Shown one piece after another: positions 1,706 to 22,948 of a DNA stretch of 25,218 nucleotides (its first letter is position 1; each line of letters begins with the position of its first letter). Position numbers and translations under genes: made by a program. The notes under the pieces are model-generated. The model saw nothing but the letters and a program-made list of their open reading frames with translations, was not told the DNA's origin and ran no database searches. The stretch spans positions 1,288,028 through 1,313,245 of the forward strand of contig NW_003126883.1 in assembly GCF_000003605.2 (NCBI RefSeq), in the 5' to 3' direction. Source of the DNA: Saccoglossus kowalevskii (lineage: Eukaryota; Hemichordata; Enteropneusta; Harrimaniidae).

Positions 1706-1737
1706 AATTGTGGAAATGTTCAGTCGAAGACTGCAAG
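1706..1737 (+). CDS. GCH1: GCH1 32-bp micro-exon (matches human exon 4)
   Basis: This very short exon follows the acceptor tttttacag and ends at the donor AAG/gtaatt. Its first base completes an Arg codon begun upstream. It then encodes [10 protein letters not shown] and gives the first G of a Val codon finished in the next exon. The helix it encodes precedes the substrate-binding VQERL segment. The human exon 4 is also 32 bp. At this length, ab initio gene finders would easily miss it. Confidence 0.95.
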
Positions 1738-4730
1738 GTAATTTTGTAATTTCTTATGTATGCGCCCTCTAGTGGCCAATTTATAAATACTTTTGTCTTT
1801 ATATGAAAAAATACTGCTAGCTTGTTGATGGTGCAAAGCGAGTAGGAATGACCGATTTGTTCATAATTTCAACATTGAAATTAAACATTAGTTGCCATGG
1901 TGACCATATTTTACAATTAATACATATTTATACTAACCTGTATGTATAATATGCAGTGTGATACCACGCTGACATGTTTTATTTTCTAATCACTTATTTC
2001 AATAAATATTAATGATTAAAAAAAGATAATATTTTCTGGAGTTGACCATTCTTGGTCATAGTTGTTTAATTATAAAGCAAGTTTTTTTTGTCTTTGTTAT
2101 AGTTCAAGAGAGGTTAACAAAACAGATAGCTTTGGCCTTGACAGAAGCAGTAAAACCAACTGGTGTGGGAGTTGTCATTGAAGCTTCGTAAGTATTTATT
2201 TTGTTTGTTTAAAGCATATATCATTCGTTAGGTGCATTAATATTTGTAATTAGTAGGATAAATGAATTACTGTAAATGCACTAATTATTTACTGTTTTTT
2301 AATTTCATTATTTTTGCTATGAATCCATGTGAACTTGCGGAATATCAATAGAACTAATTGGGGTTTTTTTGCCAAGTTCATGAACTTGAAACCCAGTGAA
2401 ATTGCTCAAAATAGTGAAAATAAATGATTTTACCATTTTTCAAAGTGTCTACTGTTTTTGCACAGAAACATACACATAAATATTGAATCATTAAAATATT
2501 ACTTATTTTCAAACATGGAAACTGCTGTAATTTACATAGCCCATGTAACTTGGTAACAACACTATATGTATGGCTTGCTGTTTAGTTGATCAAAACCATT
2601 GTAACATCAGTAGATTACAGCTTACAGTTTAGCGCCCTCTCCAGGTATATATTGTTTTTTTCTTAAATATAGCAGTATTTAGAATAACTAATTTATTTAA
2701 TTCAACGTTGCATTTGAGGATGAAACTGTCAATTTAAAAATATATCTTAATGAATTTTTCACACAACATTACACTGGGAAAAATCTACATTCTAAACGAC
2801 TTTCATTCACAAGACATATTTCGGCATATCTGGGCAAATCCTAACAGTTGTGTTGTTTAAACAAGGAATGAATTTTATGAAATGCAGTCTCTATGAACAG
2901 TTGTTCTGGTAGTAACATTTTAAAGAATTTGCATTGTTTTCTCAACTGTCGTTATTGATATGTTTAACAATTTGTTGTGTGTTGTTGTTGACATAGCATA
3001 CAAACATACATTCAAATTTCATGCAAACAGACAATATTTTTGTATATTTCACATACAACATGACACATTCTATATCTCGGCCATCACTGTCCAAGCGATT
3101 TTTTTTTTTTTTTTTATACACTGTGTATCAATAGATAGATAAACAGTTTATCCTGTGTTGGTGTGTATCATATAATCTCTTGAATAAGCATCATTTTTCA
3201 AACATTTCAACCTTTCCCGACGCCTAGATTAGAGTCTATAAATTTAGATTTACTGTAGTCATTGACGCCTATCCAAGAGTCTGATGTTTATTGTGACTCG
3301 CGTGAATGGGTAAACTTCTTTTCGACAATGAACAACAAAAGTGTTGAATCCTTCTTCAATGCTCAGTTTAATTTTCGAAATAAATGTAAATGAGTATTTT
3401 TATGTTATCATTTGAGCAGTTTTTTGTGTGGATTGACTGTAATTTTTCAACATTTCGTGACAACTATTTTAAAACCAAATTAAAGTTTTTCACTAAAGTG
3501 ACGTCCATTCAAGAGAATATACGGTATATAGTGTTAGGTTTATTTTCATATAAATATCCAATAATAGTATCACTGTTTTATACATCAGCTTTGAAGAATT
3601 GGGGGTGACAATGTGTCCATTATTTCAGCAATCTCATCTAAACTTACATTGTCCACCACTCAACAATGCATATCACATCTGTTTATTTATTGCTATTCTC
3701 AGTATTGCCATGGCGATGGCATATCACTTTCATTTCGTAATGGAAATGTTGTTGATGTTTATTTACTTAAAAGCATGTCAATGGCGTCACTTAACCTTTA
3801 CTCGTGTATCAAGTGTTTACAAACATAACACTCTGAATTCAGACTATAACTGTAAGTCTTACTTCTACATTTAGCATTCAGGAGTTTTTCTTATACATGT
3901 AGTATGCATCTTATGTTACAAAGTCAATGTAACTATGGTACTTTGGAGAGAAAAAACACGAGTTAAGACTTGTCCTTTTTGATGGCAGTGATGCATAGCT
4001 GCAATTCAAATAAAGTCAGAATGTCTTGGTCGTTTCATGTGCTTGTTACTATGTGCATTTTGAAAAGAGGAAATGCAAAATTCACCATGGTAACAGCTTG
4101 AATGTTTTAACTGTGATCTGTAATTGTAAAACAGAATGATGTTATATTCACTCAAAGGTGTAATTAGCTTCCTCATGACGTCTTATAACTTTATTGAAAT
4201 TTTGACAAATAATTATACCTTCTGACTACATCGCCATAGATTTTTAAAAAAACTGAAGATGAAAAAAAACTAGATTTTGAGTTGTAAAACTCAGTTTTAT
4301 GTTGTTGTTCAATTTTTGATTCAGAATAACATGCAGACTAGGGTTTCAGGCTCGGAGAAAAATCGTGAAGTCATTTTTTCATTCCAATGTTCACATTTAA
4401 TCCTCTAGTCATCCACATGTACCGGTATTGGCATTTTATCTTTATCTGTTTTGTTAATAGAATTCTGTATATGCATCTGGTTTTGTCGCCTTTTTATCCC
4501 TGCCAATCATTTTATTATGATGAAAATCCTAGTAGTAACTGACATTTGAAGTGTTTTTTTTCTTGTTTGCTTAATTTTTTTTATTTTTCTTTAATATTTC
4601 TAGGCATATGTGCATGGTGATGAGAGGAGTACAGAAATTGAATAGCCAAACTGTCACCAGTTGCATGCTGGGAGTTTTTCGTGAGGACTCCAAGACCAGA
4701 GAAGAATTCCTAACTTTGCTCAGAAGATAA
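1706..4730 (+). CDS. GCH1: GTP cyclohydrolase I, C-terminal three exons (partial gene)
   Basis: GTP cyclohydrolase I converts GTP to dihydroneopterin triphosphate, the first and usually rate-limiting step of tetrahydrobiopterin synthesis; the animal enzyme is a cytosolic decamer. Three exons, 1706-1737, 2103-2187 and 4604-4730, join in one frame and give the last 80 residues of the protein. Visible family motifs are [20 protein letters not shown] (the Gln-Glu pair belongs to the GTP-binding pocket), [10 protein letters not shown] (His-x-Cys supplies a catalytic His and a zinc-ligand Cys, and the Arg contacts substrate) and the terminal [16 protein letters not shown]. The 80 residues equal human residues 171-250 in length, so the C-terminus looks complete. 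The catalytic N-terminal half, with the other zinc ligands, is encoded left of the window. Introns are GT-AG with phases 2, 1 and 2. No frameshift or stop is seen, so the gene looks functional. Family assignment is near certain. Confidence 0.97.
1762..1775 (-). promoter_or_regulatory. CTCF-core-like motif in GCH1 intron
   Basis: The reverse complement reads CCACTAGAGGGCGC. It fits the published bilaterian CTCF core CCASYAGRKGGCRS at all 14 positions. It lies 24 bp after the donor of the 32-bp exon. The same string also occurs as part of dispersed repeats in many animal genomes, so binding is unproven. Confidence 0.35.
2103..2187 (+). CDS. GCH1: GCH1 85-bp exon (matches human exon 5)
   Basis: The exon follows the acceptor ttgttatag and ends at a consensus donor, TTC/gtaagt. 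It completes the split Val codon and encodes [20 protein letters not shown] then VGVVIEA, ending on two bases of a Ser codon. Gln-Glu in QERL corresponds to pocket residues known from the E. coli enzyme. Its 85-bp length equals that of human exon 5. Vertebrates usually have Thr where this protein has Ser before HMCMV, a conservative change. Confidence 0.96.
2188..4603 (+). other. Last GCH1 intron, 2.4 kb
   Basis: The intron runs from a gtaagt donor to a tttctag acceptor. It contains a T-run of about 17 at 3099-3115 and a short direct duplication with 45-bp spacing, in which GACGCCTA followed by AGAGTCT appears at 3219-3237 and 3264-3282. It also holds the weak CTCF-like site at 2632. Open frames between 3390 and 3874 are short, overlap each other and resemble nothing I know. 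No nested gene is supported. Confidence 0.75.
2632..2645 (-). promoter_or_regulatory. Weaker CTCF-core-like motif
   Basis: The reverse complement CCTGGAGAGGGCGC matches the CTCF core at 12 of 14 positions. It lies in the intron between the last two GCH1 exons. Confidence 0.2.
4604..4730 (+). CDS. GCH1: GCH1 last coding exon with stop codon
   Basis: The exon follows the acceptor tttctag. Its first G completes a Ser codon, and it then reads [20 protein letters not shown] followed by [20 protein letters not shown] and a final Arg before TAA at 4728-4730. It carries the zinc-ligand Cys and the His two residues earlier, both needed for catalysis in this family. The coding part is 127 bp, the same as in the human last exon. 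A second in-line stop-like TGA follows the TAA by chance. Confidence 0.97.
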
Positions 4731-5560
4731 TGACAACCAACTTCCAATGTCTAAGAATTAATTTTAATTAACAAATGAGTACAAGCAATACAAGCAGTGA
4801 GATCCACTACTGTGAACATGTATACCTTGAGCTAAAACTACTGCCTTGACACAGATATATAGATGCCGTATTTGCTCTATTTAAATCGCATCTCAAAATA
4901 GCCCAACGTTCTCATATGTTAGTTTTTAATGGAAGAGATGGGTTTCTAATAGAACAATTACAGTAGTTGTATGTCATTTGTGTTTAACTGAATAACTGAT
5001 GGTATGATTTTTTCTCATCAGGCACATGATTTATGCTAATTTATGCTAATTTCCCTCAAGGTATTAATTTACTACATCTCAGTTAGTGGTACAATAGAAA
5101 TAACAACCCTCCTTTCAAATTTTGTGTTTTTTGTAGCACTACTTCATGTTTCATTCCTCAACAATTTCGCTTGATAAAAATAAGTGACTTGTGCTGCTGC
5201 AATTATCAAGTTTTTTTTATAAACACCATATAGATATGCTTTAGCAGTAATGTATGCATTTACATAATGACAAACATGTGTCTATGGTTAAAACTATTCA
5301 TATTTTTAATGATTATGCATACAATATAAGGAACCCGCTGGTTTACATGCGCTTTGGAGCAAATACAGTACATTTATCTTTAATTTTATTTTTTTTATTA
5401 TAGCTAAGAATTATTATGTAAGTTAGAATACGTATTTTTACAAATTTTTGAAAATCATGAAATTCCTTGCGTGAAAGTTACTGGTACTGTAATTGGTTTA
5501 CAATACTTTTTTGTCTAGGACTTTTAGCAATAAAATTACTGTATTTGTTTATTGAAAGCG
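4731..5560 (+). other. GCH1: Probable GCH1 3' UTR
   Basis: This non-coding AT-rich stretch follows the stop codon. The first canonical AATAAA I found after it is at 5529-5534, followed by a T/G-rich stretch that could be the downstream element, so a 3' UTR of about 0.8 kb is plausible. A doubled 'tttatgctaa' lies at about 5032-5051. A piece of a dispersed motif (GCGCTTTGGAGCAAATACAG) lies at 5350-5369. The end is inferred; RNA reads would be needed to place it. Confidence 0.4.
5529..5534 (+). terminator. Candidate poly(A) signal AATAAA
   Basis: A perfect AATAAA lies 799 bases after the GCH1 stop codon. It overlaps the left end of a repeat-like stretch (5535-5650), so it may be repeat-derived. 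AATAAA occurs often by chance in DNA this AT-rich. Confidence 0.35.
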
Positions 5561-6343
5561 CAACTCTAATAGAAGTGTACATAGATTTCTTGTATGCTGA
5601 GACATGAAAATATGAATTACTTTGACTATAAACACACCTGTCATTTACGTGAAATTGCTCGTATTACTGACCGACACCGACAAATGTGAAATGAGTGATA
5701 GTGAAGGAGCATTGATTTTTCAGTTACTTTATTATCACCTCTTGAATATGCATGATATTATTTCATTAAAAAAATTAAAATAGCGAATGACGTATTTATA
5801 ATCGTATTGGCGTTGTCATAATTTGGCAATGGCCTAGCCCTTGTTCTGGTAGTAAACAGGTAGTTAAAACAAATCACTGAAAAAAACTGCAACAAAGTGT
5901 CAAACACAGTTTATGTGGGATATATCTTTATTGTCTTCTCACATCTGAATTTAATTCGTTTCTCGCTGTATAGTGTTTTATGGTTACGTCAATTCTATTT
6001 TTGGTAAGATCTCGTAATCATGACCTCGACTTGTTTTATACCATCTGTTATTTTATTAGTATGCGCCACTGTGATGAAATTTTTCAAAATAAGTCACTAT
6101 TTTAAATTTCACCAAAGTGTTCTTGTGATCATGGCTAACAAAAGACATTTTATATGGTTAACTGAAATATGTAATTCTTTTTGTAGACGTTCTTGTCTTT
6201 ATTTTTAAAATGTGTATTATTGGATTATAATTAACAGATTTTATTTTGGTTTTACAGGTTTACAAAAGATTGTAATTATATTGACTTCATTGTTTGATGA
6301 AATGCAACTTGTTATACATATCTGATTGTTTTTCAAATATGCA
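5561..6343. other. Intergenic DNA with a dispersed-repeat fragment
   Basis: The stretch 5624-5650 (GACTATAAACACACC..) is nearly the same as 20139-20167, with two mismatches and a two-base gap. Next to it, at 5549-5573, is a GCGC..CTAATAGA motif that recurs elsewhere. No gene is recognised in the remainder. Confidence 0.55.
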
Positions 6344-6457
6344 TGTATATTAAGAAGCTGATTTGCATATCAATTTATTCATGTATATTAAGTAGTTGAT
6401 TTGCAAATCAATTTGTTCTTGTATATTAAGTAGTTGATTTCCACATCAATTTATTCA
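6344..6457. repeat. Three-copy 38-bp tandem repeat
   Basis: Copies begin at 6344, 6382 and 6420, each opening with 'tgtatattaag' and exactly 38 bp apart. Each carries a GATTTGC..ATCAA core. In the middle copy the core is a perfect 16-bp palindrome, TTGATTTGCAAATCAA (6396-6411). The first copy contains ATTTGCAT, which equals the POU octamer. Confidence 0.9.
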
Positions 6458-7359
6458 ACTGAGCTGATTATAAATGTTCAATTGATTCATTTTCCCTGGA
6501 GCAGCTTATATCTGGATTAACCGTTATAATTCCTGTAAATTAGTTTTAGATGGTGTTTACATTTTTATGAATATATATGTATACTATAACCAACAAATTC
6601 CAATATATATATGGAAGTCAATTTGTTTTCTGATTCAACTGGCAAGACCATTTTGGTCCTAGAAACTAAATTTATAAATGTGAGAATTGTTTTTTCTGTT
6701 TTCTGACAAACCTGGGTGGGGCAGTTTTATTTAAAGTAACATTCCATCTTTGTATTTTATACAGAACACTCGCACTGAAGAGGTTATAGAGCAATTCCTG
6801 AAATATTGAAGTACAGCTACCTTACACTGAAAGTTGTAGTGTCTAACCACCAAACAAAACATAATTTCCATTTCTGTAAACACGTTTCTGTATTTTTTAG
6901 ATTCTTCTACAGATTGTTACAGACAGAATATGCTAATCTAATAATACATATATATATATATATTCAACAAACATATTTTATTATAAAGAAGGTAATAAAA
7001 AACAATGACAGTGCGGGGTGGCAGCCTTGAGTTCTGATGAACTGGGTTTTTCTCTAATACTATTCACTATCATCAAATTTACTTTTTGAGATTTTCTATG
7101 AATATTTTCTGACTAACAATTTTTTTTTCATATGTGGGTTTACTTTGGTTTGAGACTCATAACACAGCAGTATGTGTAGAGTTGATTCCCTGTGGGTGTC
7201 TAACCTCGCAAAATACCTGCAACTTGTGTGTCTGAATGGGTGTGTGATTGAGTGTTTGAACAATCTCTACTCACATTGACATATCATTTTGTATTTTAAC
7301 CCAAAATGTTATTATCATTAATTTGCAATTTCTATAACTGACAATGAGAGCATTTTAAC
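6458..7359. other. Intergenic DNA, no gene recognised
   Basis: AT-rich DNA with a short TA dinucleotide run at about 6948-6962. The small open frame at 6806-7030 has no recognisable motif. Confidence 0.55.
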
Positions 7360-7569
7360 GTACTGTAAAATACTTTATTTTCAATTGAAATTTTCGTTAT
7401 TTTCGCTGAAGGAATGATTCAGTGAAAATAAAATCCAGCAAATATACCTTTTTTCCTATATTTTACATTGAACTCGTCAAAAATCAGTGAAAATAATTTC
7501 CACACAAAACACCCAAAAAGTCTTTTCAGCGAAAATTAATTCCAGCTAAAATAAAGTATTTCACAGTAC
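7360..7569. mobile_element. MITE-like element with terminal inverted repeats
   Basis: The left end reads GTACTGTAAAATACTTTATT. The right end, reverse-complemented, reads GTACTGTGAAATACTTTATT. Complementarity continues inward over about 45 bp with one small gap, through TTTTCGCTGAA on both arms. The interior carries further CAGTGAAAATAA/TTCCAGC motifs. At about 210 bp with no coding capacity, this fits a non-autonomous DNA element. Target-site duplications are not obvious beyond TA at the termini. Confidence 0.75.
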
Positions 7570-7971
7570 TTGACCAAAACAATAGTTTCTCATATTGCCA
7601 AATATTAATCATGTCAAGCACTGTCATATTACCGACAGTGAGATAATAAGCTGTGTATCTGTATTGAACAAAATGATGTAATATATTGTGAAATAGGGAT
7701 TATTATCTCTCAGTGGTTGAATATCTTGAAGCACCATAAAAGTGAATGTATACAATAAGGGTATGACTGTGTCGCACCAAATAAGAACCAAGTATCAGTA
7801 ATTGTATATCAGTATATTTTAATGACAAATCATGGAATTGTAGTAATTAATGTGTTGTGAGCAGAAAACAAATGACCAAAACAACTAAATAAATTATTTA
7901 ACTTCAATCATTCTGCCTTGACTTGTTTTGCAATGGTTTGAATAGAATACATGCGTGTGGTGAACTGATCC
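7570..7971. other. Intergenic DNA, nothing recognised
   Basis: AT-rich single-copy-looking sequence between the inverted-repeat element and the small palindrome. No open frame or repeat stands out. Confidence 0.5.
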
Positions 7972-7996
7972 AAAATGGCCAACTAGTGGCCATTTT
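7972..7996. repeat. Perfect short inverted repeat (AAAATGGCCA arms)
   Basis: Ten-base arms AAAATGGCCA and TGGCCATTTT flank a 5-base loop, actag. The right half (AACTAGTGGCCATTTT) recurs at 20762-20777. The arms also resemble the 'aagatggcc...ggccatctt' modules of the repeat at 1-1000, so this may be a relic of the same family. Confidence 0.75.
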
Positions 7997-8126
7997 AACA
8001 CCTGCTCAAAGCCCCCACAAATAGCGGAAATAAAGAGGAAAAAACTACATCAGCTGGTGATGTTAACCTGAAAATGATGGGTGTTTCCTATCATAATATA
8101 AGTGATCAAGTTGCATGTGTGTGCTC

Positions 8127-8447
8127 ATTGGCTGGAATCTTGTCATGTGATCAAGCTGTATACGTGCTGTCACTGGGTAGGATTTTTTGATGTGATCATG
8201 CTGTTGTCTTATTGGCTGAGATCTTGCCATGTGATCATGCTGTTGTCTTATTGGCTGGGATCTTGTCATGTGATTTAGCTGTGTGGTTATTGGCTGGGAT
8301 TTTGTTACGCGATCATGTGGTGCACTATCATCATGACTGTGATCTTGTCATGTTACCAAGCTATGTCTTATCAACAGGTACATTGTCTTGTGATCATGCT
8401 GTGCTCTCATTGGCTGGGATTTTGCCATGTGATCAAGCGTGACTTGC
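8127..8447. repeat. 39-bp minisatellite, about eight degenerate units
   Basis: Units begin at 8127, 8172, 8211, 8250, 8289, about 8331, 8370 and 8409. Most spacings are exactly 39 bp, with small indels in three places. A typical unit has ATTGGCTG, then GGATCTTGTCATGTGATCA, then a variable GCTGT tail. ATTGGCTG is an inverted CCAAT box and CATGTG an E-box. Because 39 is a multiple of three, both strands show 13-residue peptide repeats in short open frames. I see no other evidence that these are translated. Confidence 0.9.
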
Positions 8448-9220
8448 TGCCAGCCAGTCTACCTCAGTGGTTCCTGGGTAATACCGGTAGAATATTTAGT
8501 TTTGCTCCATTTTTTTGCACTGAAGCACAGCAGCTTCCCCATGAGCAATACAAAAGAGCCTATGGAAAATGTGTACTGTAAGTAAGTGGACTGGTTGGTA
8601 GCAGTTCTATTCCAAGGATCATGTTGACTAAACTAGTAATAATTTGTCTGTCTGAATATAAAATTTAGAATTTGGATATTGAAAAAGTTATGTTACCGTT
8701 CAGCAATTGTACAGCGCCCTCAATTGATGAAACATGCAAAATCTGTGCCTCTTTAAATATGTTAGCAAAAAAAGAGAAGGGAAAAAAAACAATTTGACCA
8801 GAGAACTTTTTTGCAAGGGCCGAGTAGTCTTGTGCCAACTTTTAATGGCCATAGTAATTTGGGTTCTGCCTACATAATTTTCAGGCATATTGCCAATTTA
8901 GCTCAAAGATTTGCATTTGAATATTAAACTAACTGCCATTTAGTTAAAAAGAAACCTCATGATTTCTCTTGTATTAGGTCCGTCAAAGTACACAATGATA
9001 AGGTCTGAACTGTTGGCTCTATCTATGTGTTCACATGGATATTAATGAAAGCTGTCACAGGTTGTCATCTACTCTCTCCTGTGCTGTCTAGTCAGTTTTT
9101 TATTTGCTGTTCCAGTCCCTGTCTGTGTTCATCTTTACTGGCTTTTAAAAGACTGATTTTATGATATTTGTCCTTGTATGGTTTTATACTGCCCGATGAC
9201 AGTTACAATGTAACAGATCT
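8448..9220. other. Intergenic DNA, nothing recognised
   Basis: No exon-like block or clear repeat. A GCGCCCTC string at 8713-8720 is a poor partial match to the CTCF core. Confidence 0.5.
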
Positions 9221-9455
9221 TTGAGTTACAGGCAACATACATCTCTGTTTTTGTTAGCACATTTAGTAACCCAAAATTTAATTAACAGTTAAACAAACTA
9301 TGAGTTACGAGCGACATAGATTTGTCTGTTTTGTTTAACATTGTATGTTTGCTTGTTTGTTTGTTTGTTTAACTGTTAATTAAAGTTTGAGATACTAAAT
9401 TTGAACTAGAACAATACAAAAAATCTATGTTGCCATTTGAGTTACTAAATGTGGG
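9221..9455. repeat. Nested fold-back repeat rich in GAGTTAC
   Basis: Arms 9273-9298 and 9363-9388 are inverted copies matching at 25 of 26 positions, around AATTAACAGTTAAACAAAC. Outside them, CACATTTAGTAAC (9258-9270) is matched exactly by its complement at 9441-9453, and GCAACATA..T (9232) by ATGTTGC (9427-9433). GAGTTAC recurs at 9223, 9302, 9439 and 9513. A TTTG run lies in the right arm (about 9348-9370). This fits a decayed fold-back or MITE element; no coding is seen. Confidence 0.75.
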
Positions 9456-9564
9456 CGTTCAACAAAAACAAAACAGTATGATTCTCGTAACTCGAAGTTC
9501 TGTTGACTTAACATTGAGTTACAAATTGGGCATGGTTTCTAAAATAAGGACAGAGTTATTTTTT

Positions 9565-9565
<1 letters not shown>

Positions 9566-9595
<30 letters not shown>
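9566..9595. repeat. (TAA)10 microsatellite
   Basis: Ten uninterrupted TAA units. The surrounding 9456-9720 still carries GAGTTA/TAACTC motifs from the adjacent fold-back repeat family. Confidence 0.95.
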
Positions 9596-9596
<1 letters not shown>

Positions 9597-9943
9597 CTTA
9601 ATTGATATCGTATATTTTATAGGAACTTGAGTTAAATTACAATAAAGTGAGGATAAAAAAATAAAATAAAATAATAACAATTGTAATTCAATGTTTTCAT
9701 AACTCGATGTCCGTTCAGCATGACTTCACAATGAATGAGATTGTTAAACTACGGTCAACTAGAGTTTGTGTCTTTTTTTAAAAATCATGTTTATTTCACA
9801 TCGGTGACAACTTACACATAACCTCTCTCTTTAGTACTGACACATTCTAAACTAACGTGGGATGTGTACCATAATTGTTTGCTAACTCATCAGTCACCTT
9901 ACATGGTAAACTTTAATAGTCTAATGCAGCACAGATAATGGGA

Positions 9944-9957
9944 ACACTAGAGGGCAG
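9944..9957 (+). promoter_or_regulatory. CTCF-core-like motif, intergenic
   Basis: ACACTAGAGGGCAG matches CCASYAGRKGGCRS at 13 of 14 positions. It lies between GCH1 and SAMD4. Function is inferred from the motif alone. Confidence 0.3.
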
Positions 9958-9959
9958 TG

Positions 9960-10363
9960 TTTCTCATTACTCATTTAATTTCCTTTTTTTTTTTTAAATA
10001 CGTAGTCCATTGTTTCTGTGAAATAAGAGACATTTATATCTTATGTATTAATCATATATATTATTGTTCTAATCATTGAAAATAACCTTTATACAAAGTT
10101 AGACACTTGTTTTCCGGGATTATTTGTGTTAGTATTACCATAGTACGGTAATCCATGGTATTATGTTACGATAAAGCCGGAAACTAGGGTATTTGTTCGG
10201 AATGCAAATGATTTATGGGTGGTCAGAGAAGGCGTGGTAGTTTTGTCACGATGTGCTCCGCGTCATGTCAATTTTCGAGAAAATTATGGTTATAAATTCA
10301 ATCACGGCGGCAACTGTGATAATCATTGTCATATGACATTCGTGTGGTGTTTCTGTATCGTGT
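9960..10363. other. Intergenic DNA, nothing recognised
   Basis: Contains a T-run at about 9986-9995 and a small hairpin-like TACCAT...ATGGTA near 10137-10161. It is slightly richer in CpG than its surroundings at 10200-10320, but no open frame or RNA gene is evident. Confidence 0.5.
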
Positions 10364-10520
<157 letters not shown>

Positions 10521-10609
10521 CCATCCTCAGCAGATCTTAGACATTCTATGAATCTTGGTTATACAACAAATCCCAGGAAAACCTTATATAGATGCGCACA
10601 AGGAAGGCA

Positions 10610-10645
10610 CACAGACAAACAGACAAACAGACAAACAAACAGAAA
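10610..10645. repeat. CAGACAAA microsatellite
   Basis: Several ACAGACAA-type octamer units decay into CAAACAGAAAG. It lies 90 bp right of the long AAAT repeat. Confidence 0.85.
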
Positions 10646-12939
10646 GCCAAACAAATGAAAAAAATATATAAAATCGTCAATTGCAAATTTTGGTTAGACT
10701 ACATTTATATTTCATTTCTTTGTCATAATCTACTGTGTACGAGACGCTGTACCGGTACTTAATTTACTGGTGAACTTTAAGTCAGTCAGTCATAATTCGA
10801 CACAACAATTAATTATCTTCAAATTAAGGATATGCACGATATTGAAAATAAAAAAAAAATACAAATTATTTGCTCTGACCTAAATTTAGAAACATCCATC
10901 ACAGTCTCAAATTTGGTTCAGAAATACAATTTGTCTTGTTGTGTTTACATCAACTCTACCGAAAATGCATGTTTTATTTAAGTGACCGCCATCAAACCAC
11001 CCTGCCCATTACATTTGATGTCCCCAATGCTCTATCTTGCGTCCTCTTCTTTTCCTGAAAATTTATAAATGGTTATCTTCTAAGCTCTTCTACCTTTTTC
11101 AACTTTAAGCAATTTTCTGATGATTCTAATCTTTTCAGTCTTTTGCAAAAAAAGTACACAGGAACAGAAACTAACCTTTCATAACAAGTTCATACATGGT
11201 GTAATGCCAATAAGCTCAGTGTCAATGATAATAAAACTACATGTATATGTTATTTTCTACAGTCAAGAATAAAACTAATACCAAACTAGAACTTCGTATT
11301 GATAACACATTTTACAGGAAGTTGAATCAACATCATGAGTGAACAGTGAGATCCATTGTCCATTTTCAGTTGTGCATTGTTCTCGCTGTTGAGATGACAA
11401 TACTACGGTATTTACAGTTTGTTTACTTTTCTGTTTGCACTAAGAAAACTTAGATTCATATATTTCTCATAACTATCACTGCAGCCAAGACAGTTGTAAT
11501 TATAAATACTAGAAGCTCTGTACGCATTTCATTTTGCGCACACGAAATGTTAGCCAAGATGCTAGTTAATTACAATTTATCACCACATCTGAGATCATAG
11601 CACTGTCTTAAAATTTGCACTGTATATCGATGTAGTACTCTGCTTTATCATGGCGAACACAAACGCCCTCTAGTGACAGAGATAAATAAAAAAAATGCGA
11701 TAAAAAAATGTGCTGCATTTCCGATGGTAAGACATTCGGAAGTAAAAAAGGGGATACCATTAATATCCATATCGAAAGGCTCAGTTAAGGAAGTGCCTGA
11801 CTCAAAATATATGTTATAAATGAAGGAATAGTAACAACGTACAAAACTGAACAACTTAATATCACGTACTTTACTACTACTGGTTTGATTTCAGGGTTTC
11901 AATAGCCATTTCCAACTTTTGAGTTTAATAAATATAACTACATGACTGGGTCTAGGTTAGCAAGACGACGGGCAAAGACACCCACCGACTGACGTAATAA
12001 GACAATAAAACCGAAAACATTTTACCTATGTTATATATAGGTGGTTTCCGGACTCAACCATTACACCAACTCATTTAATTTTCACGGGGCTTTTTTTCAT
12101 CACGGTGCCAGAATTTAGACAGCGTAGTACTGTGTCTCCTTTTTTATTACCTCCATGGTTAATCGCACACATGTTTTTTTTTTTCAAGATTAGGATATAT
12201 AAATATATTCTCACTAGTACTTCTATTTGCAGTCAATAAAAAATCATACGCCCGGGGCATACGTTCATAAATAAAATAAACAACACGTTGAATACTATAT
12301 GTAGATTCACAGTCCGGTAGATTGTGCTGATCAATTAATTTTACCGATGTTGTTAATAGTTTTACTTATTTTCAGCTGTACAAATAATAATAACGTACTA
12401 AAACTTTAGATAGATTGTTTTAACTGTGACAAGATCTGCATATTTAGTCATTTAATAACGTCATCGAGTCATGAACTAAAATACAACATGGCATCATGAC
12501 TCCGTGACAGTCAACAGAAGACAAAGTTTGTTTACATTGACTTATTTGCAACCTTCACATTTTTTTCACATATAATAAAGGCACAATTGTGGACAATAAA
12601 TGATATTTTGAAAGTGTTGAGGAGAAAATGGTCGTTGAAACCTAAAACCTAAACGTCTACCATGAGACATGGCGAAGAGACTGTATTTTCCCAGCTTTGC
12701 TGACCCTGCTTGTGTGACGTATCACAGAATACTAATCGCCACATTATCATAAACGTGGTCCTATGGGAGAGCGCTGTGCGCCAAACAGAACCACACTCGT
12801 CGAAAACACGGATATTTTCATTCTTTCTGTTGACAGTGTCCACCAATTTAATCAAGACAAGAGGACTATATATCAAGGAACACAGTGAATATGCTAAGAA
12901 TGTGAAGTTTGTGAATAACGAGTGACAATTTCGTCCTTA
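10646..12939. other. Intergenic DNA upstream of SAMD4, no gene recognised
   Basis: I see no exon-like block with splice sites. Short opposing open frames at 11648-11854 and 12649-12925 have no family motif. A CTCF-like site lies at 11663-11676. CpG content begins to rise from about 12640, toward the SAMD4 5' region, so distal promoter or enhancer sequence may lie in the right part. Confidence 0.5.
11663..11676 (-). promoter_or_regulatory. CTCF-core-like motif, intergenic
   Basis: The reverse complement TCACTAGAGGGCGT matches the CTCF core at 12 of 14 positions and is opposite in orientation to the site at 9944. Confidence 0.22.
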
Positions 12940-13590
12940 TCTCCTTCGTTTCCTGAAAGCTTTGGTTTGTGTCTATCGGCAACCCCCGCGTCGGAGGACC
13001 GAACGTGATTCACTCAGTTGCATCGCACCAACGCGATATTCTGTTGGCCCGAGGGCGATGGATTTCTTCTATCAGTAATAGCTGTATTTTTGTTGACTGG
13101 AAATACGTATCGTTTCGCCGCTGTTTCTTTAATTCATCCCGAAATCTGTTCGTAAACAAGAAACGAGGAAGCTCTGTGTTGTCGACTAACCTCTACTGCT
13201 CACCGAATACAACAATGGTCTATTTTCGCATTCAGGTTGTCTGTTTTGATGACACTGTAGCTCGGTCGTAATTATCGACTCTTGTCTAATTGTTTTCAAA
13301 AAACGTATCCGCTATATTCAAAGCCGTTTTTCTCATTATGGCGCCTGTTAATATTTCATAAGCTGAAAAGTTTGTTATCGTGTCATTTGCAGGTCAAAAC
13401 GCTCGCCAAAACGTGTCTTTGTTTTGAAATTTTCGTTCTGCATGTAAATACACCCGATAAACACAACACTGTCCAAAATACGTGCAAAATACACACGTAC
13501 TCACTCCGCGGTGTTAGGCTTCTGTACATTTGTATTTCTGTGAATACATCTATGGAATTTTAGTAGATTTGTTACAACATTTTGAAAAAC
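12940..13590 (+). promoter_or_regulatory. CpG-rich promoter / 5' UTR region of SAMD4
   Basis: CpG dinucleotides are dense here, including CCCCCGCGTCGG, CGTATCGTTTCGCCG and CTCCGCGGTG. They are sparse through the rest of the window, and the CpG-rich stretch continues into the SAMD4 exon. Several upstream ATGs (for example near 13215 and 13338) would make this a uORF-bearing leader if transcribed. The start site is not visible; TATAATAAAGG near 12571 and a TATATA at 12868 are only weak TATA-like candidates. A possible acceptor (ttttag at 13558-13563) just before the coding start leaves room for a separate non-coding first exon. Confidence 0.55.
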
Positions 13591-13798
13591 ATGAAACCGT
13601 CGAACGCTTTCCGCGATCAGGTACGAATGCTGTCTGGTTGGTTCAAGGAATGGTCGGACTGTGAGCAAACCGTCGCCCTTTATTCATTACTCAGTCGCCT
13701 TTCAGCTACACAGGCACGGTTTCTGTCATTTGTCCTGGAACAAACAGTCTCCGATTCGCAAGAACTTAAATTACTTGAACAACAAGCTAATGACCCTG
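13591..13798 (+). CDS. SAMD4: Smaug/SAMD4-family protein, first coding exon (partial gene)
   Basis: Smaug proteins are cytoplasmic translational repressors that bind stem-loops through a SAM domain and recruit deadenylation machinery. This exon encodes 69 residues plus one base, with [31 protein letters not shown] and LEQQANDP. These match the conserved N-terminus of vertebrate SAMD4A/B, upstream of the PHAT-like and SAM domains. ATG 13591 is chosen because it has A at -3, lies just before the conserved block and is the first in-frame ATG after the TAG at 13564-13566. The exon ends at a strong donor, CCTG/gtaagt, phase 1, after the Asn-Asp-Pro that aligns near the vertebrate exon end as I recall it. 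Later exons are not in the window. Whether this is a single ancestral Smaug or an A/B-type paralogue cannot be told from this part. Confidence 0.92.
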
Positions 13799-14809
13799 GT
13801 AAGTCGGTGTTTCTTCTGTTGTCATAAAATGATTTAAATATTAAAAAAACACGTACGTCGCTCTGAAAATGTCAAAAAAATAAGGGCGTGTGTAAATAAT
13901 ACTAAAGTAATGTGTTGTGGCGGGATATCCATTGCGTTGCATTGCCTACTATTCGATATGTTATGGGTTTCGACATCCGGTGAACAATTTCACGGATATT
14001 CACGTATGACATTGTAACTATGCACAGGCCATATTCTCTTTCACCAGGAAATACCATATTTCTCTTGGTATTGATCATTAACAAAATCCATGGGTATTTC
14101 CTGGTTCTTAGATAAAATGTCAAAACATACAGAAATGTCCAACTGACCTCAGGTCATTGGTGGTCTGCAGACTGACAGAGCAAGCATAGAATATTTATTG
14201 ACACGCCCTTTGGCCACATTCTCAGCTGCTAGGTCACTCATTTATGACACAGTTAAATAACAAAAGGGAAGGAACTTGACTAAGTAGTGTTTTCTTTGAA
14301 TGATTTCCTTTATGTGACAAAGTGTGTTCGATGTTGTCAATCATAAAGTTACAAATTGCATTGGATACAAATCCATGCATTTTCATGATGTATAGAACAA
14401 ATTTCAATTGATTTTAATGAAAACAATTTCAATTGTCTGGCAAGGACAATTGTTGCCTGTGAAGTGCCCCCTCACATGTTTCCTATTTTAGATCTCTGTC
14501 CCACTGAAATGGACAGTTATCGATTTTGTTGTTGAAAATGATTACTCGTATCCAAGTAAATTTGAAATATTTCTCGTGCTGTAGCCACGCCTATCTATCC
14601 TGAAAGTGTCGACTGTTTCCGAATTTCCAACTCTTGCCGAAGTGCGCCATTAAATGCCAAAATATGAGAGGAAGTCATACTGTTGAGTCGTACATTTATA
14701 ACACTGCGTCATTCAATGTACTTATAAACGATATACATTTTTGGGCAATTTTTTTTTGGGGGGGGGGGAGACTGAGAAATTTTTAAGGTTGTTTTCACAA
14801 CAAGCATTT
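13799..14809 (+). other. Start of SAMD4 first coding intron, nothing recognised
   Basis: After the donor, the sequence is AT-rich with no exon-like block. A T9G11 homopolymer junction lies at 14749-14768. An open frame on the - strand (13902-14123) has no recognisable motif. Confidence 0.6.
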
Positions 14810-15056
14810 ATGATGATAAAACGTTTTGTTGTGGACATGTGGAGTGATGGGTATAGTCGTAGTGTAAGTATTCACAGCTTTCCAATCGGTCAGAAGGTGC
14901 GACATCAGTGGATGAAAGCCATGAAAGCAATGAGAAAAAGTTGTAATGGATCTTCTCCTTAAACCGTGATGTCCACTTTACCTCAGATTCTTTTTTCGAA
15001 AAACTGTCCTCGTTCATGAAAGAACAACTACCAGGTTTTAAAGAGAACTTAAACCT
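14810..15056 (+). pseudogene. Decayed THAP-type zinc-finger coding block
   Basis: From ATG 14810 one frame reads WSDGYSRSVSIHSFPIGQ then KVRHQWMKAMKAMRK. A second frame, shifted near 14940-14960, reads NRDVHFTSDSFFEKLSSF then MKEQLPGFKENLNL. Order and spacing fit the THAP domain (C2CH zinc finger): a FP pair, a W about nine residues later, then HF. All expected zinc cysteines in the open frames are lost: the second reads as Trp, and the Cys before HF reads as Arg (CGT, one transition from TGT). A TGTTGT at 14827-14832 may be the original first Cys region, now out of frame. The block ends at a good donor, CCT/gtaaga (15057). THAP domains occur in cellular regulators and in P-element-like or other DNA transposases; which gave rise to this is unclear. 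It lies inside the inferred SAMD4 intron, same strand. Confidence 0.55.
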
Positions 15057-15607
15057 GTAAGAGGTAGGAATAATTTTGTTAGTGATGCGAAAACGAAGCG
15101 TTGGACAAACAGGAAATTATGCATCACTTACACACTGCTAAGTGTTTCGATTTTCGCAGGCTAAAAGTTTCTGAAATTGCTCTTTGATTGGTGTTGAATG
15201 TGGAAATCACACCTCTGTTACCTCTACTTGCAGCTTGATCTGCTGAATAATTTATGGAATAAGAACCCGGGCTTGGGCTGTCCATGTGTTTCGATTAAGT
15301 AAATTTTTAATATGATGTCATAATTATGACAATCACGCTAACTGTAATCCATTCTGAATTTGTATATGTGTTGCTCTCACTTATCTTTTTTTATCCAATC
15401 AAACGCCCCCATTCATGCACTGGTCCTCGTTGTGACCCAGCGTTGCAACAAAATGTCAATTCATTTCCATGCGACTGTTGTTTATTTAGTGACTGTGATT
15501 TTTTTTTAAAAATTATTTCTATATGTTATTGATCACTATAGTTAAATGTTTAGAATGTCGAAATATGTTCTCTTTTTATTTTAATTTTGAATGTTTTTTT
15601 TACTTAG
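15057..15607 (+). other. Stretch between THAP relic and exon-like block
   Basis: It starts with a donor-like gtaaga and ends with a T-rich tract plus acttag, so it could be an intron of the decayed gene. It also contains an imperfect hairpin with TGCGAAAACGAA near 15087 and its complement near 15145-15158. Nothing else is recognised. Confidence 0.4.
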
Positions 15608-15766
15608 ACAATCGATGAAATAAAACAGTTTAGGGACATGCCTAGTAATGCTAAATAACGAGAAAATTCTAAGGCGTCAAAATCAATTTTGACAAACTTG
15701 GCGATGATCGACTTAGGCATAGAGAGCCCCGTGGAAATAGAAGTTGATACTTCGACAGACTACCGT
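15608..15766 (+). pseudogene. Exon-like block with splice-type borders and one stop
   Basis: The block is preceded by a pyrimidine tract and acttag and followed by a consensus donor, CGT/gtaagt. It is 159 bp, exactly 53 codons. The first frame is open except for one TAA at 15656-15658. It reads TIDEIKQFRDMPSNAK before the stop and, after it, RENSKASKSILTNLAMIDLG then IESPVEIEVDTSTDYR. The other two frames have early stops. I do not recognise the peptide. Its acidic, polar character and its position 550 bp after the THAP block suggest it was a downstream exon of the same dead gene, although the phases do not join directly (2 versus 0). Confidence 0.35.
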
Positions 15767-18700
15767 GTAAGTAATTGTGTAGTCCAGACCACAGCCCCGT
15801 TGTAGTTCTTTCTAACTTTTTACCAACTCGAATGTTGTCCAGTGCCTGGGTTCAGCAACAGTGTCCAAACTTGCGGTGACCAGCTACGCCAGAAAGGCAT
15901 CTAACTCAACACTTCTGACGTCACAAGGGGAATTTCTGTATGCAAATAAGAAGCTAATGAGGAGCCTCGTTTTATAATACACGAAAATAAAGTTGCCATA
16001 GACTGAGTTTGAAATGCATTTTTTCACTTTAAAAAAATATTTTATGCTTAGAAATGCATTTAAAATATGATTTTCAGGTCCAAGTTATACATAGATACAT
16101 GCTATTTTGTTGTAGTTTTTCGACCAATGTCACTAACATCCCTAATTTGTCCTGGGTTGTGGTACCTGTTATATTTCACCTGTTATATTTCACCATATTA
16201 TGTCCATTTTATTCTTTGAGCTTCAAATTTTGTTCTCTCTCAATGTGGGGTAATTTTGTTCACATTTTCTGTAATTTTTGCTGAATTCAATCTTAATTTC
16301 GGACCAACAGTCAAAATGTGACATTGCTTCTAGTTTTTAACAGTTGGGGAAAAAAACAGACTACTAATGGAACTATTTTGTGGATGGTGCCTGGGATTGA
16401 CTTCGGCTCTGAGTTTGTTGAAGTTACAAACACAAAATTTTTATAATAGGACATTACCATATCTACTTTATTAGCAGTGAATTTCCAATTGAAGCATATT
16501 CAAACTAATAGTTACATTTGTTGCATATTGAATTCTTAATATAAGACTTTGACCATAAAAACACTTTTTTTTACACAAACGCTTGTGTTTACTAATAGAA
16601 CAAATTCAGTATTCAGTAATTTTGTAGATTTGTTTTTTGACAAAGTCATAATGTCTAAACTAATAAAGTGTCTGGATCTTAGAAATATATTGTACCGGTA
16701 ATACAAAGATCACATAATACAGTGTCATATTTATCATTGAAACAAAATTGACTCCAATTTTAAAGATTATTCGCATTTCCAAAATCTAATAATACACTAT
16801 GCATCATTTCTATATACTTAAGGGTACGTCACATGTTCGAACAAACATGTTCCTCACACTCTACACATGTATACTGTCACATCCAAAATGTCTGCCATGC
16901 ATATTATTGTAATATATACTTTGAGGTTGACTTGTACAAATGTTAGATTACTTTTGGTTAGTGAATAAGACAATTTATAAATGACCAAACAACTTCTAAA
17001 TGTCAAATGTCCCCCAAACACCTTCAGGGTGAATCACTAAAGGATTGTGATTTGGATTGTACATCAGATTTTAAATGTAATGTATAAAATGCCAGATTTT
17101 CGACATGGTTAGGTCTGGTTAATAAAATTAATTATTTTGTATCTGCATTACTGTGTTTGCTGTATTTGTAGCACATGCTCTTATGCAAATTATAGATGTA
17201 TTTCCGTAGTCAAAATAAGTACCATTAATCTTTTAATGATTCAGTTTACAACAAATTTAGGTAGATATGCGCTTCTAATAAAGTGAATACAGTACCTCTG
17301 AAATAGAGTTGAGATAATTTCATTAAAAAATCAAATTGTGAGATTTCACTACAGGGGGGAGATTCAGAGTTTTGTTTCACCTGGGTCTTTTAACAAAAAT
17401 AAACAAACCAGAAAAAATAGTGGAAACAGGACTCTCTATACTTGGGGTTTGTACAAACTCATTACCCAACACTGCCTTATTCAGTAGCTGCGCTCCCAAA
17501 TATAAACATGTATTTTTTGGGAACTATCAGTAGCAGTTGTAAACAACAAATGAAGCTTATACACTTATGGTCATATTGATTTTTCTGCGCTTTGGGATTA
17601 ACTCATTATCTTGTGTATTCCATTGAAATATTTTATCAATTCATTTTCACTATTAAACCATAGTATTTTCTAATCTTCTTTTGCACACACTACCTTGTAT
17701 TGTAGAGAAGCATGTTAACTTAAATTTTACCCTGATTGGTGGAGTACGTATACTATGAACAAAAAGTTAAAAAATGACTATCCTATAGGAAAGATAAACT
17801 TTTGTTTGCAAAATTCGAACCAGCATGAATCGTAACAAAAAAAGACCACCAACCAACACTGAAATCAACCACGCCATGTACGAAAATTTTCAAATCGCAG
17901 TTGCAAGTTGTGTGAGCTTGTGCAGTGATGCCACTGATTTGGATGTGGATTATATAATAGCCATTTTGGAGCTTAACACAATCGAAAATAAAATCCATGG
18001 AAACAAATTCAGTATTCTATTATTTGGCTAATTTAGGAATCTACTTTACACTTTACAAGTGACAAAAATTTTGTCAATTTTTTTTATGTAGAACCTGATT
18101 TCAAGAGTGCAAGTTGTCTTGTTGCAATAGTACGTACACCATCACGAATATATAGGTGAAATGCAGAAAATATGGTGCCCAGAATGTCATACAATTACAT
18201 GTGTGTTTTTCAGTCTTAGTCCTTATTCAGTGCAGCACTGACAATTTGTAATGTGAACAAAACAGTGTCTATTTGGTAGACGCTTAATCAACTCTGATAT
18301 ATGATTAAAATTTGTCACATAACGAGCTAAATATAGTCTGTGTATCTGATACACAATATGTATAGTATCGTTTTATTATTGTCTGTCACTCAAGAACACA
18401 ATAGAAACTGGCTCGTGTTTACAAGATTGACATTTTGGATAAAACAGTGAACACCTAAAGAAGATTATTGGATGCTTGTTCAGATCCAGGTCACCCCATG
18501 AAATTTAAACTTAAATCATAGTATGTAGCAGATACATACATGTACATGTATATATGTTGCTGCTGCCTTGACCTCCTGTACTTTCCAGTCAACATCACTG
18601 CACTACTTTAGTTCTTTGTTTTAATCTTCATATACCATATTTGTAATAACCTTAAAATACTGCATGACAGAGTCCATAAACATCTTGTCAAATAATAATT

Positions 18701-20063
18701 GTAATTATCTGGTCAAGTCAATGTAAAAGTACATGGGCTGACGGTAGGATAAGGGTTAAATTACAAATGTACAGCACATTGGTAGGTGAAATGAAATGAA
18801 AATCAGCATTGTTCAACATTGTAACACTGTTTCCAATGTTAACTATTATTAATTTCATTTAATCTTGCACTGACTTAACTACATCATAAATGATATGCAT
18901 TTAACCATCATATTAGCCATTTAACCATGTCAATCTGTTTGATGATACGTATTTAGACTATATAAAATTAATAATATCAAAATTGACAGATTTTTGTTTT
19001 TTAGTTAACTGCAAAACAACTAGGACAGAAAAATCAAAATATTGTGTCCATAGAAAAACATGATTGCATTCCAGATTTCAAAAGGTACCTAGTGTTTAAT
19101 ATCATGTCGTGCTGTTATGGATTTGTTTATTTCACCGTGAAATCATTTATGTCACTTATAAATATCAATATTCAAGGTAAATGTCAATTGATGGCCATGA
19201 ACTGGTATACTGTGTTTAAATAACTCATTTGTTTTTTTAACCTAAAAGTTTATTGCACTTTAAATACTTAATGCAGAATGTAGAATGGGTAGTAACATTG
19301 TTAGCAAAAAGAGGAAAAAACTGTTTTACCGTCCTTACCAGGTCATAGGCCTCAACATGTAAAATCAAGGAAAGTAAAGGGATACCCGAGGACCACCTCA
19401 GAAAAGATGAGGATTTTTCTGTTTAACATTGTTAACCCCTTGAAAATTTATTCAAATTATAAATGACACAGAATTAGGGGAAATATTATGTGTTTGGCAA
19501 ACATTTTATTATGATATTATTTACATATTTTGTGAATTTCAGTGTAAAATTTATTAGGGTCTGTGGGTAAACAGTCAAGTCAACATCTTCATCATTATCT
19601 TAGTGTGGTACATGTATGTTCTCAATCGTACACAAACTCTAGGTGCAAAGCAATTTCTGCCAATTTTCTGCACAATTTGACCTGAAAGAATGTCCTCTGA
19701 CCCGACAGCTCAAGTCTGTTATCAACCAATCAGAATGTTGTGTCATATTGATGTACAGTGATCTGCTAGCCTAATGGGAGTGCTGGTTTCTGATGCAAAT
19801 ACTTTGTTATTCAAGTCAAAATAGTATGTTTCACAATAACATTATTACTCTGGAAAAACTACAAAATTTTATTTTGTATTTGTCTGCATGACATGCTACA
19901 TTCAGTCAAGATAATAAAGTAATAAAACTCAAATAAAAACACATTTGCAGCCAGGAATATGTTCATGAGTTTCACGATCTTATTTACAGCAAAAGCCAGG
20001 GATTCCCTCAACTCAATAAATGTCAAGAAATAAGGGCTTATACCCATGGAGGGGCTTATGAGA
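15767..20063 (+). other. SAMD4 intron interior, no exon recognised
   Basis: I looked for the next Smaug exon (PHAT-like region) and did not see it. Notes: a duplicated CCTGTTATATTTCA at 16166-16192, a dispersed motif GCGCTTCTAATA at 17270-17281, and a possible relative at 16581-16616. A double ACATGTACATGTA palindrome lies at 18539-18551. Overlapping short frames on both strands at 17783-18031 match no family I know. Confidence 0.55.
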
Positions 20064-20073
20064 GGGGGGGGGG
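20064..20073 (+). repeat. G10 homopolymer
   Basis: An uninterrupted run of ten G is followed by AGGGG. It is a likely site of length error in assembly. Confidence 0.85.
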
Positions 20074-20138
20074 AGGGGAGTATAGTAATTAATATTTTCA
20101 GCCAACAATTGCTGAGTCATCAAAACATAACTTATTGT

Positions 20139-20198
20139 GACTATATACACACCTCTGTCATTTATGTATGCGCTACTAATAGAGGAAAGTACGGTAGC
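20139..20198 (+). repeat. Dispersed repeat copy (GACTATATACACACC...GCGCTACTAATAGAG)
   Basis: The left half matches 5624-5650 closely. The right half carries GCGCTACTAATAGAGG then AAAGTACGGTA, a version of the motif seen at 5348, 17270 and, in reverse, 4865-4890. This supports a short interspersed family with several copies in the window. Confidence 0.6.
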
Positions 20199-22910
20199 AC
20201 ATCCACTTGATTACAGTGTGCGATATATCCAAATAAGGAGGAAGAAATGTTTTGCAATACATTATTAAGATTAACAAATTACTGGGTGAGGTTTGTGTTG
20301 TACTTGTAAGGGGTGGTGGTCATTGTGACTCCACAAGTTTAAATATTGTGTAAAAAATTACTAGTAACCATGTTTAAGTAGAGTGAATGCACTAGTCTTC
20401 TGCAAGGAGTTTGCATCTGTTAACTCATTGTTTTTGTTCAAATACCGGTACTGTGTAATCTCTGGATCCCTAAGATTAAAATACATGTACATACACTGTA
20501 TACCTGGTACTTCAACTTCAGTAATAGATTGACTGTATCGTGTGATTATTCACCACCAGTTTTAGCTCATTTTATCTTGTTATTCAGATGCATTGTAGTT
20601 CCCCTAAGAATATGATTGGTCTATTAATTTCGGTTCCATCAGGCCTTGCATGCATTTTGCACCATTGCCCAGACATCAATTGATCCATTTCTTTTATGCT
20701 TGGCTACATGGTATCAAACATAGCATGTCAATTTCGTTTGTGATTTAAAAAAAATGTGACTAACTAGTGGCCATTTTGGACATAAAGTTTAATAATAATA
20801 GCATAAATCATCAGTCACTGTCGTATAAATGTTTGTACTGTGTAACATCTTGGTGTGTATGTCACCTACGGCATCATGGTGGTGTGTAGTGTGTACTGTG
20901 ATGGGAAAATACTATATGTCTATAGCTAACATGTATGTTCAACGCTTGATTTTTAATCCCCTAGAATACTGTACACTGCATTAATTTTGTAGGAGAATCT
21001 ATTTTCAGAAAACTTTGGAAAATCACCAAATTTTATAGCAGTGAAAATTTCACTGGGGTTCTTTACTCCCTGTAAACTCCCACAAATTATCAATTACCAT
21101 TATCAAATTATCAACAGTGTATAATATTTCGTCTCAAATTTTATTTGGGTATTTATCAAAACAGCTGTGCAATTTAGTTGTCATGACAGTAGTTGCATGT
21201 TTCTATCTGTCTTTGTAGGGTAATCGGTCATCCTAGCAATATTTGCTCATGATTTTATGCTATAGTAGTAATTTTAACAGTTGTCTATAACAACATATGG
21301 TAAATTAGCATATACGATACATGTATGTAAATTAGCCCTCATTTCAATTGCTGCTATCCCCTCCCTCCACTATTACACTCAAATATTCTAGTGTATTTAT
21401 TGTGTACTTCCTTTCTGACCGGTCAGAAACTGAGAAATCGTTACTGTAACAACTCTTTTTTTGATACCCCATACTTTCAACAAGGAGGGAACAGTTGTAT
21501 TCCCTTGCTCCAACAAGAGTATAGTGTTTCAGTGGGTATTGAAGTATGTGAAATAGAAAGTTCACTGTATACTTGTACAATAGGTCTGTGGTTACCAAGA
21601 AGCTGAAACCTAGATAGCTGTACTTAATTTGGTGCAGTAGTATAAATCAAATATGCAATTATTATTGTAAATTACTTTTTGATACATTGCAAAAATGTCA
21701 ATAAATGACAGGACCAATATCATAATATCTGGTTATGAATTTGGTTAGGTTTAGTAATATATAATTAAAAAAATAATGTAATAACTCATATTGTAACAAT
21801 ATATTGCTAAAAATGAAATACAAATATAAGATGTGGCATGTCATATCTACTGTGTTCATGGGGTTTCATCTCACAGTTGTTCTTCAACTGAACTGTTAAT
21901 GGGCTATCAGACAGCGTGGGCGATCACTTGATTCTACTTTCTGTTGCTGGATAATATCAGCCTGAGTTGATTACTTGTAGTAATCAGAATAGCAACAAAA
22001 ATTTTAAGAAGCCGGAGCAGCTGCTGATGATTTAAATATTTTTATTTTTTTTTTGCATTTAAGTGCTATAATGTTTTAAAAAATGTGAGACAGCAGTGAG
22101 TGAGTGGGTGTTGCAACATTGCATTGAAGCTTAGTGTAAATTTAGTAGCGTTGAACAATTTTCTGGAATACGGCATAAAAATATCGTGAAAATTCCTAGA
22201 AAATTAAGGGGTTTAGGCATGGACCCTAAAAGAGGTTGTTTGGTTTAAGGTATATAGAAAGTAAGGCTCAATTAAAAGTGGTAATGATTGTTTAAACGTT
22301 CTGCATTTACCAAACTACTGTGCAAGTTGGCTGTGCTTAAAATGCCAACAGAAATGAACATAAGCTTCTAACAGAACTTCTAATGTGATGCATTCTAGGC
22401 CTATTTTTGTAACTATAATGCAGTGTATATGCATCTGACACATTGCGACTGATCTAACCAGTAATGATCTTAAAACATGATCTGGATGGATTTTATGATG
22501 AGACCTAACATTAGCATCCTTGAACCATTACTTTATTTGCTCTATTGGCTCTGTTATCAAAATAAGTAATAACAATATATGTAATTTTATGCAAGCTTCT
22601 ATTGCAAATGTACTTCTAAGAACAAAAGCAGTATTTGAAAGTAGTATTCTTGTGTATGGTTAGGCTAGGAAAAATTTACTACTGGTCTGTGTTTTTTCAA
22701 TTGATCTCGCAGGAAATACAGTATCACTAAACCTTGCAAGAGGAAACTGTTCTCATGGTATTAGACCACAGAGTACTTGGCACAGTACAGGTCAGTTATA
22801 GGAAAGGACATATGGTACACATTAATGTGGCACATGTATATAATAATTACTTGTTTAATACATGTATGGCTATGCTGGGGGTGGGGTCGCTGCAAGTGAT
22901 TGGCGAACAT
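20199..22910 (+). other. SAMD4 intron, no exon recognised
   Basis: AT-rich. The half-palindrome AACTAGTGGCCATTTT at 20762-20777 is related to 7972-7996. A 17-bp CAGTGAAAATTTCACTG palindrome lies near 21040. Opposing short frames at 21344-21606 have no known motif. Confidence 0.5.
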
Positions 22911-22948
22911 GGGCAGGGCAGGGTGGGGGGGGTGGGGGGTTGGTTGGG
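22911..22948 (+). other. G-rich tract with G-quadruplex potential
   Basis: The order GGG-CA-GGG-CA-GGG-T-G8-T-G6 gives at least four G-runs of three or more separated by loops of one or two bases. Another G-rich patch (GGGGGTGGGG) lies just upstream at about 22877-22886. In a window about two-thirds A+T this is exceptional. It is on the sense strand of the inferred SAMD4 intron. Confidence 0.75.

Follow-up and report, generated by a model that had tools for sequence, protein, structure and literature searches.

Why a gene for GTP cyclohydrolase I (GCH1) and a gene for the mRNA repressor Smaug (SAMD4) lie side by side in Saccoglossus kowalevskii is the question raised by this locus, since the same two genes are also closely linked in human. 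The stretch of DNA analyzed here, referred to as the window, comprises 25,218 nucleotides.

Three exons of GCH1 were located on the plus strand between positions 1706 and 4730, with an intact reading frame, AG/GT borders and a stop codon. The first (1706-1737, 32 bases) lies in an open frame between AG and GT and is recognized by the match of the spliced product to PF01227 and to 1fb1. The second (2103-2187, 85 bases), likewise flanked by AG and GT, reaches 22.5 bits against PF01227 by itself (six-frame scan, cut-off 27), and the last one (4604-4730, 127 bases), which follows an AG acceptor and runs up to the stop codon, reaches 40.2 bits in the same scan. Splicing of the three exons results in a single open frame of 81 residues plus stop, in which residue 1 (R) is assumed, because its first two bases belong to the absent preceding exon and were supplied by hand. 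The product matches PF01227 (GTP_cyclohydroI) with an E value of 1.7e-32 and, across its C-terminal 80 residues, GTP cyclohydrolase I 1fb1 with 2.1e-39; the top four PDB chains range from 2.1e-39 to 3e-39. We take 1fb1 to be the human enzyme and the top PDB entries to be mammalian. Exon lengths of 32, 85 and 127 bases are presumably those of human GCH1 exons 4-6, which is why the first two exons were taken as exons 4 and 5, and the last exon carries the HMC zinc-ligand motif. Judged by its sequence, the assignment of 1706-4730 to an animal GCH1 can be regarded as secure. No earlier GCH1 exon was found when the three plus frames of 1-1705 were compared with PDB chains; the first exons are probably situated outside the window.

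The first coding exon of SAMD4, which encodes the N-terminal domain, was located on the plus strand at 13591-13798 (208 bases). It starts with an ATG at 13591, 24 bases downstream of an in-frame stop (13564-13566), and closes with a GT donor. Its product matches the PDB entries for 'Protein Smaug homolog 1' (8oik, E 6.4e-22, 40 of 64 residues being shared with that fragment) and 'Protein Smaug' (8oij, E 2.4e-07) as well as the Pfam family Vts1 (E 1.4e-09); DUF4508 (E 0.097) was below its cut-off in the six-frame Pfam scan. From these matches the exon appears securely assigned to SAMD4/Smaug and to the Smaug N-terminal domain. Neither the SAM RNA-binding domain nor later SAMD4 exons were found in 13799-25218 by the Pfam scan or by comparison of the three plus frames with PDB chains, and the later exons are probably situated outside the window. 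This exon search also brought up AGR133Cp (5c6g) at E 0.0051, a weak match that was taken as chance. Since the plus frames yielded neither early GCH1 exons nor late SAMD4 exons, both genes probably run past the window ends. Searches for relatives of the SAMD4 exon yielded 165 stretches fitting the peptide pattern in prokaryotic contigs and 64 in viral contigs, none of which was confirmed by tblastn, a result that is uninformative on animals.

The space between the GCH1 stop codon and the SAMD4 start codon (4731-13590), which includes the GCH1 3'UTR and the SAMD4 5'UTR, is 8,860 bases long. Pfam was scanned with all six frames of the whole window, cut into 12 pieces, with E values up to 0.1. 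No family was found in the gap, and the whole window contained only PF01227 (in two GCH1 exons), Vts1 and the sub-threshold DUF4508 (in the SAMD4 exon), in a scan that may miss short exons and families outside Pfam and that the 32-base GCH1 exon escaped on its own. Neither a tRNA nor an Rfam match at gathering score was detected, the gap included. With no further Pfam family above its cut-off in any of the six frames, GCH1 and SAMD4 are the nearest recognizable neighbors here, arranged head to tail on the plus strand. The sequence-only reading had described two recognizable genes about 9 kb apart on one strand, head to tail, and the Pfam and PDB matches together with the intact splice borders bear this out.

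That reading had also placed GCH1 next to SAMD4A in human 14q22. We take the human genes to be immediately adjacent and tail to tail, their 3' ends being separated by about 50 kb. In this layout, GCH1 points its 3' end towards SAMD4 in human as it does here, whereas the tail to tail order differs from the head to tail arrangement with an 8.9 kb gap in the window. The Drosophila genes Punch (2R) and smaug (3L) are not known to be linked, which counts against an inherited pair. In contrast to the spacing assumed above, a distance of about 0.8 Mb between human SAMD4A and GCH1 is given in PMC2903595. Close linkage, the part of the claim that is documented and that matches the situation here, comes from three gene lists, which give names rather than order or strand: SAMD4A, GCH1 and WDHD1 are named together for one SNP on chromosome 14 (PMC4673997), a 1.04 Mb deletion takes in SAMD4A and GCH1 (PMC6110470), and both genes are named for a 1.9 Mb region of viral integration at 14q22 (PMC6365579). 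WDHD1, CGRRF1 and others appear as outer neighbors in these lists.

Beyond human, the vertebrate gchIa genes lie within a region of conserved synteny and are linked to socs genes (PMC1890551), indicating that the GCH1 region retains neighbors throughout vertebrates. PMC3296744, comparing human with fish, relies on GCH, WDHD1 and SAMD4A to mark synteny around SOCS4, which shows that the block is old at least within vertebrates. Neither SOCS4 nor WDHD1 is present in the window, which differs in this respect from the vertebrate region. In zebrafish and pufferfish socs4a is syntenic with GCH and WDHD1, and pufferfish socs4b with SAMD4A, both matching human SOCS4 (PMC3296744). In fish, GCH and SAMD4A are thus reported beside different copies of socs4, and the pair seems to have been parted there, as would follow from duplication and subsequent loss.

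Inherited microsynteny combined with one turn of SAMD4 is, in our judgment, rather likely to be the best explanation of these observations. GCH1 and SAMD4 would be adjacent here since they were adjacent in an early animal ancestor, and in one lineage SAMD4 would have been reversed relative to GCH1, resulting in the head to tail order here and the tail to tail order in human. Each gene would have a separate promoter, GCH1 for tetrahydrobiopterin synthesis and SAMD4 for the repression of target mRNAs, and the linkage would most likely have been retained passively or through constraints invisible here. The one-gene inversion suggested in the sequence-only reading holds as the correct minimal account, as, given the human layout above, turning SAMD4 alone interconverts the two. 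With random gene order, a given neighbor would recur in about 2 of 20,000 cases (about 1 in 10,000); the fairer null, in which the roughly 1,000 genes of a single ancestral chromosome are shuffled, gives about 2 in 1,000 (about 1 in 500). Both figures are our own arithmetic. Inherited adjacency is therefore favored over chance, a preference that a single comparison cannot prove.

Conserved metazoan microsynteny is reportedly the subject of a 2012 study by Irimia et al. The pair resembles this phenomenon in that unrelated genes stay adjacent in distant animals, and differs from it in size, as the blocks described in PMC8851819 are counted from three or more genes, compared with two here. The main texts of PMC8851819, PMC5585340 and PMC6292497 mention neither gene, no paper on GCH1-SAMD4 microsynteny was found by title or abstract start, and a search on both gene names together returned one paper, PMC2903595. 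The adjacency is real and probably inherited, and thus an instance of a known phenomenon. Ancient microsynteny reaching beyond vertebrates, as proposed in the sequence-only reading, most likely accounts for this pair, an assessment based on one comparison and a prior: the pair is real in this window, human linkage is close and the block is old within vertebrates according to the synteny cited above. If the pair recurs across phyla, the genes for a metabolic enzyme and an mRNA repressor would be added to the long-standing linkages in need of a regulatory explanation; the differing orientation, together with the seeming separation in fish, would then make it possible to test whether linkage or promoter layout is kept.

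Such a regulatory reason constitutes the first alternative. The pair could be held by cis-regulation, with elements that control one gene situated within or past the other, or with a larger regulatory landscape (in human towards BMP4), so that breaks are selected against; we rate this as rather unlikely. In its favor, human endothelial cells show a response of both SAMD4A and GCH1 to TNF-alpha within 10 minutes, with the two genes in contact (PMC2903595). Moreover, regulatory constraint is one proposed cause of conserved microsynteny, a matter called unclear in PMC8851819, and ancestral microsyntenic blocks are associated with topologically associating domains (TADs) (PMC13317027). In the window, a second CpG-rich spot inside the gap (10.0-10.5 kb) fits this alternative as well. 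However, the contacts of SAMD4A extend to TNFAIP2 (about 50 Mb away), SLC6A5 (chromosome 11) and PTRF (chromosome 17), yet not to GMFB, a non-responding gene about 0.1 Mb away (PMC2903595). Because SAMD4A meets distant responders and not nearby GMFB, contact tracks response rather than linkage, and the endothelial data indicate common responsiveness and not a need for linkage. GCH1 and SAMD4 are also not classical developmental regulators, and the apparent parting of the pair in fish (PMC3296744) speaks against selection on its integrity.

Two sequence features, CTCF-like motifs and the CpG-rich start of SAMD4, bear on this alternative and weigh against it. Four CTCF-like sites with a score of at least 14 were detected (0.185 expected, maximum of 2 in 200 shuffles), none of them beyond the left half of the window: two in GCH1 introns, namely at 1760-1778 (minus strand, score 24.6 compared with 20.3 for the best of 200 shuffles, matching the consensus with 0 mismatches) in the intron after the 32-base exon and at 2630-2648 (minus strand, score 17.4) in the next one, and two between the genes, at 9941-9959 (plus strand, score 19.3, consensus with one mismatch) and, weaker, at 11661-11679 (minus strand, score 14.4). 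Seven sites scored at least 10 (0.975 expected, maximum of 5 in shuffles), and a consensus search allowing one mismatch returned two sites (0.05 expected). Part of this excess is post hoc, as the pattern was picked after the motif had been spotted by eye and the matrix was set by hand. No CTCF-like site was listed for 13.8-25.2 kb, and the motif may be common throughout the whole genome. If bound as insulators, these sites would tend to part GCH1 and SAMD4. In echinoderms, CTCF motifs are less enriched at domain boundaries than in zebrafish and show no orientation pattern (PMC13317027).

SAMD4 begins within a CpG-rich stretch (12001-14000, plus strand) with CpG observed/expected ratios of 0.91-1.55 per 500 bases, compared with 0.58 for the window. 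We took this stretch as the putative SAMD4 promoter region; its composition is consistent with SAMD4 having its own promoter, and a CpG-rich start belonging to SAMD4 itself argues against control through its neighbor. Above-mean CpG was also found at 10.0-12.0 kb (except 11.0-11.5), at 14.5-16.0 kb, at 5.5-6.0 kb and at the left end, so that the CpG island at SAMD4 has no sharp bounds. The second CpG-rich spot in the gap (10001-10500, observed/expected 1.81) lies beside an AATA microsatellite and is a possible unmethylated regulatory element. About 5 kb past the GCH1 stop are CpG depleted (4501-10000, 0.26-0.60 per 500 bases, except 0.96 at 5501-6000), as if methylated or transcribed.

The shared regulation proposed in the sequence-only reading thus finds its backing in the human co-response and contact (PMC2903595), which are not specific to neighbors; the window contributes no support, and fish seem to part the pair (PMC3296744). 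The regulatory reading of the pair is a hypothesis. Its most specific form, in which a common regulatory domain that responds to stimuli has preserved the pair from the bilaterian ancestor onwards and outlasted the turning of SAMD4, strikes us as decidedly improbable.

The second alternative is that the adjacency arose independently, both genes residing on one ancestral chromosome and being shuffled together by chance. Gene order inside ancestral chromosomes is known to scramble over long times, and the orientation here is unlike the tail to tail layout taken for human; even with a shared chromosome of about 1,000 genes, however, such a re-meeting amounts by our arithmetic to about 0.2%, and we regard it as unlikely. 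The fish arrangement (PMC3296744) makes a chance re-meeting slightly likelier and the regulatory reading slightly less likely.

A misjoin of the contig between GCH1 and SAMD4 is very improbable: the gap does contain a 153-base AATA microsatellite (10368-10520) and a 309-base repeat array (8127-8435), at both of which short-read assemblies can err, but the window is free of any N, G+C runs at 0.27-0.40 per kb with no step, a misjoin would have to bring in, by coincidence, a gene that in human is closely linked, and a short repeat flanking the gap (5595-5650 and 20110-20167, 81% over 58 bases, 51.1 bits, barely above the best score of 46.8 in 50 shuffles) speaks against a join of two species. 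The array at 8127-8435 is built from a 39-base unit present in about eight degenerate copies. At the left end of the window, 85-825 contains related repeat units of the AAGATGGCCGACTGGCAGCCATCTTG type, which probably represent a dispersed repeat family.
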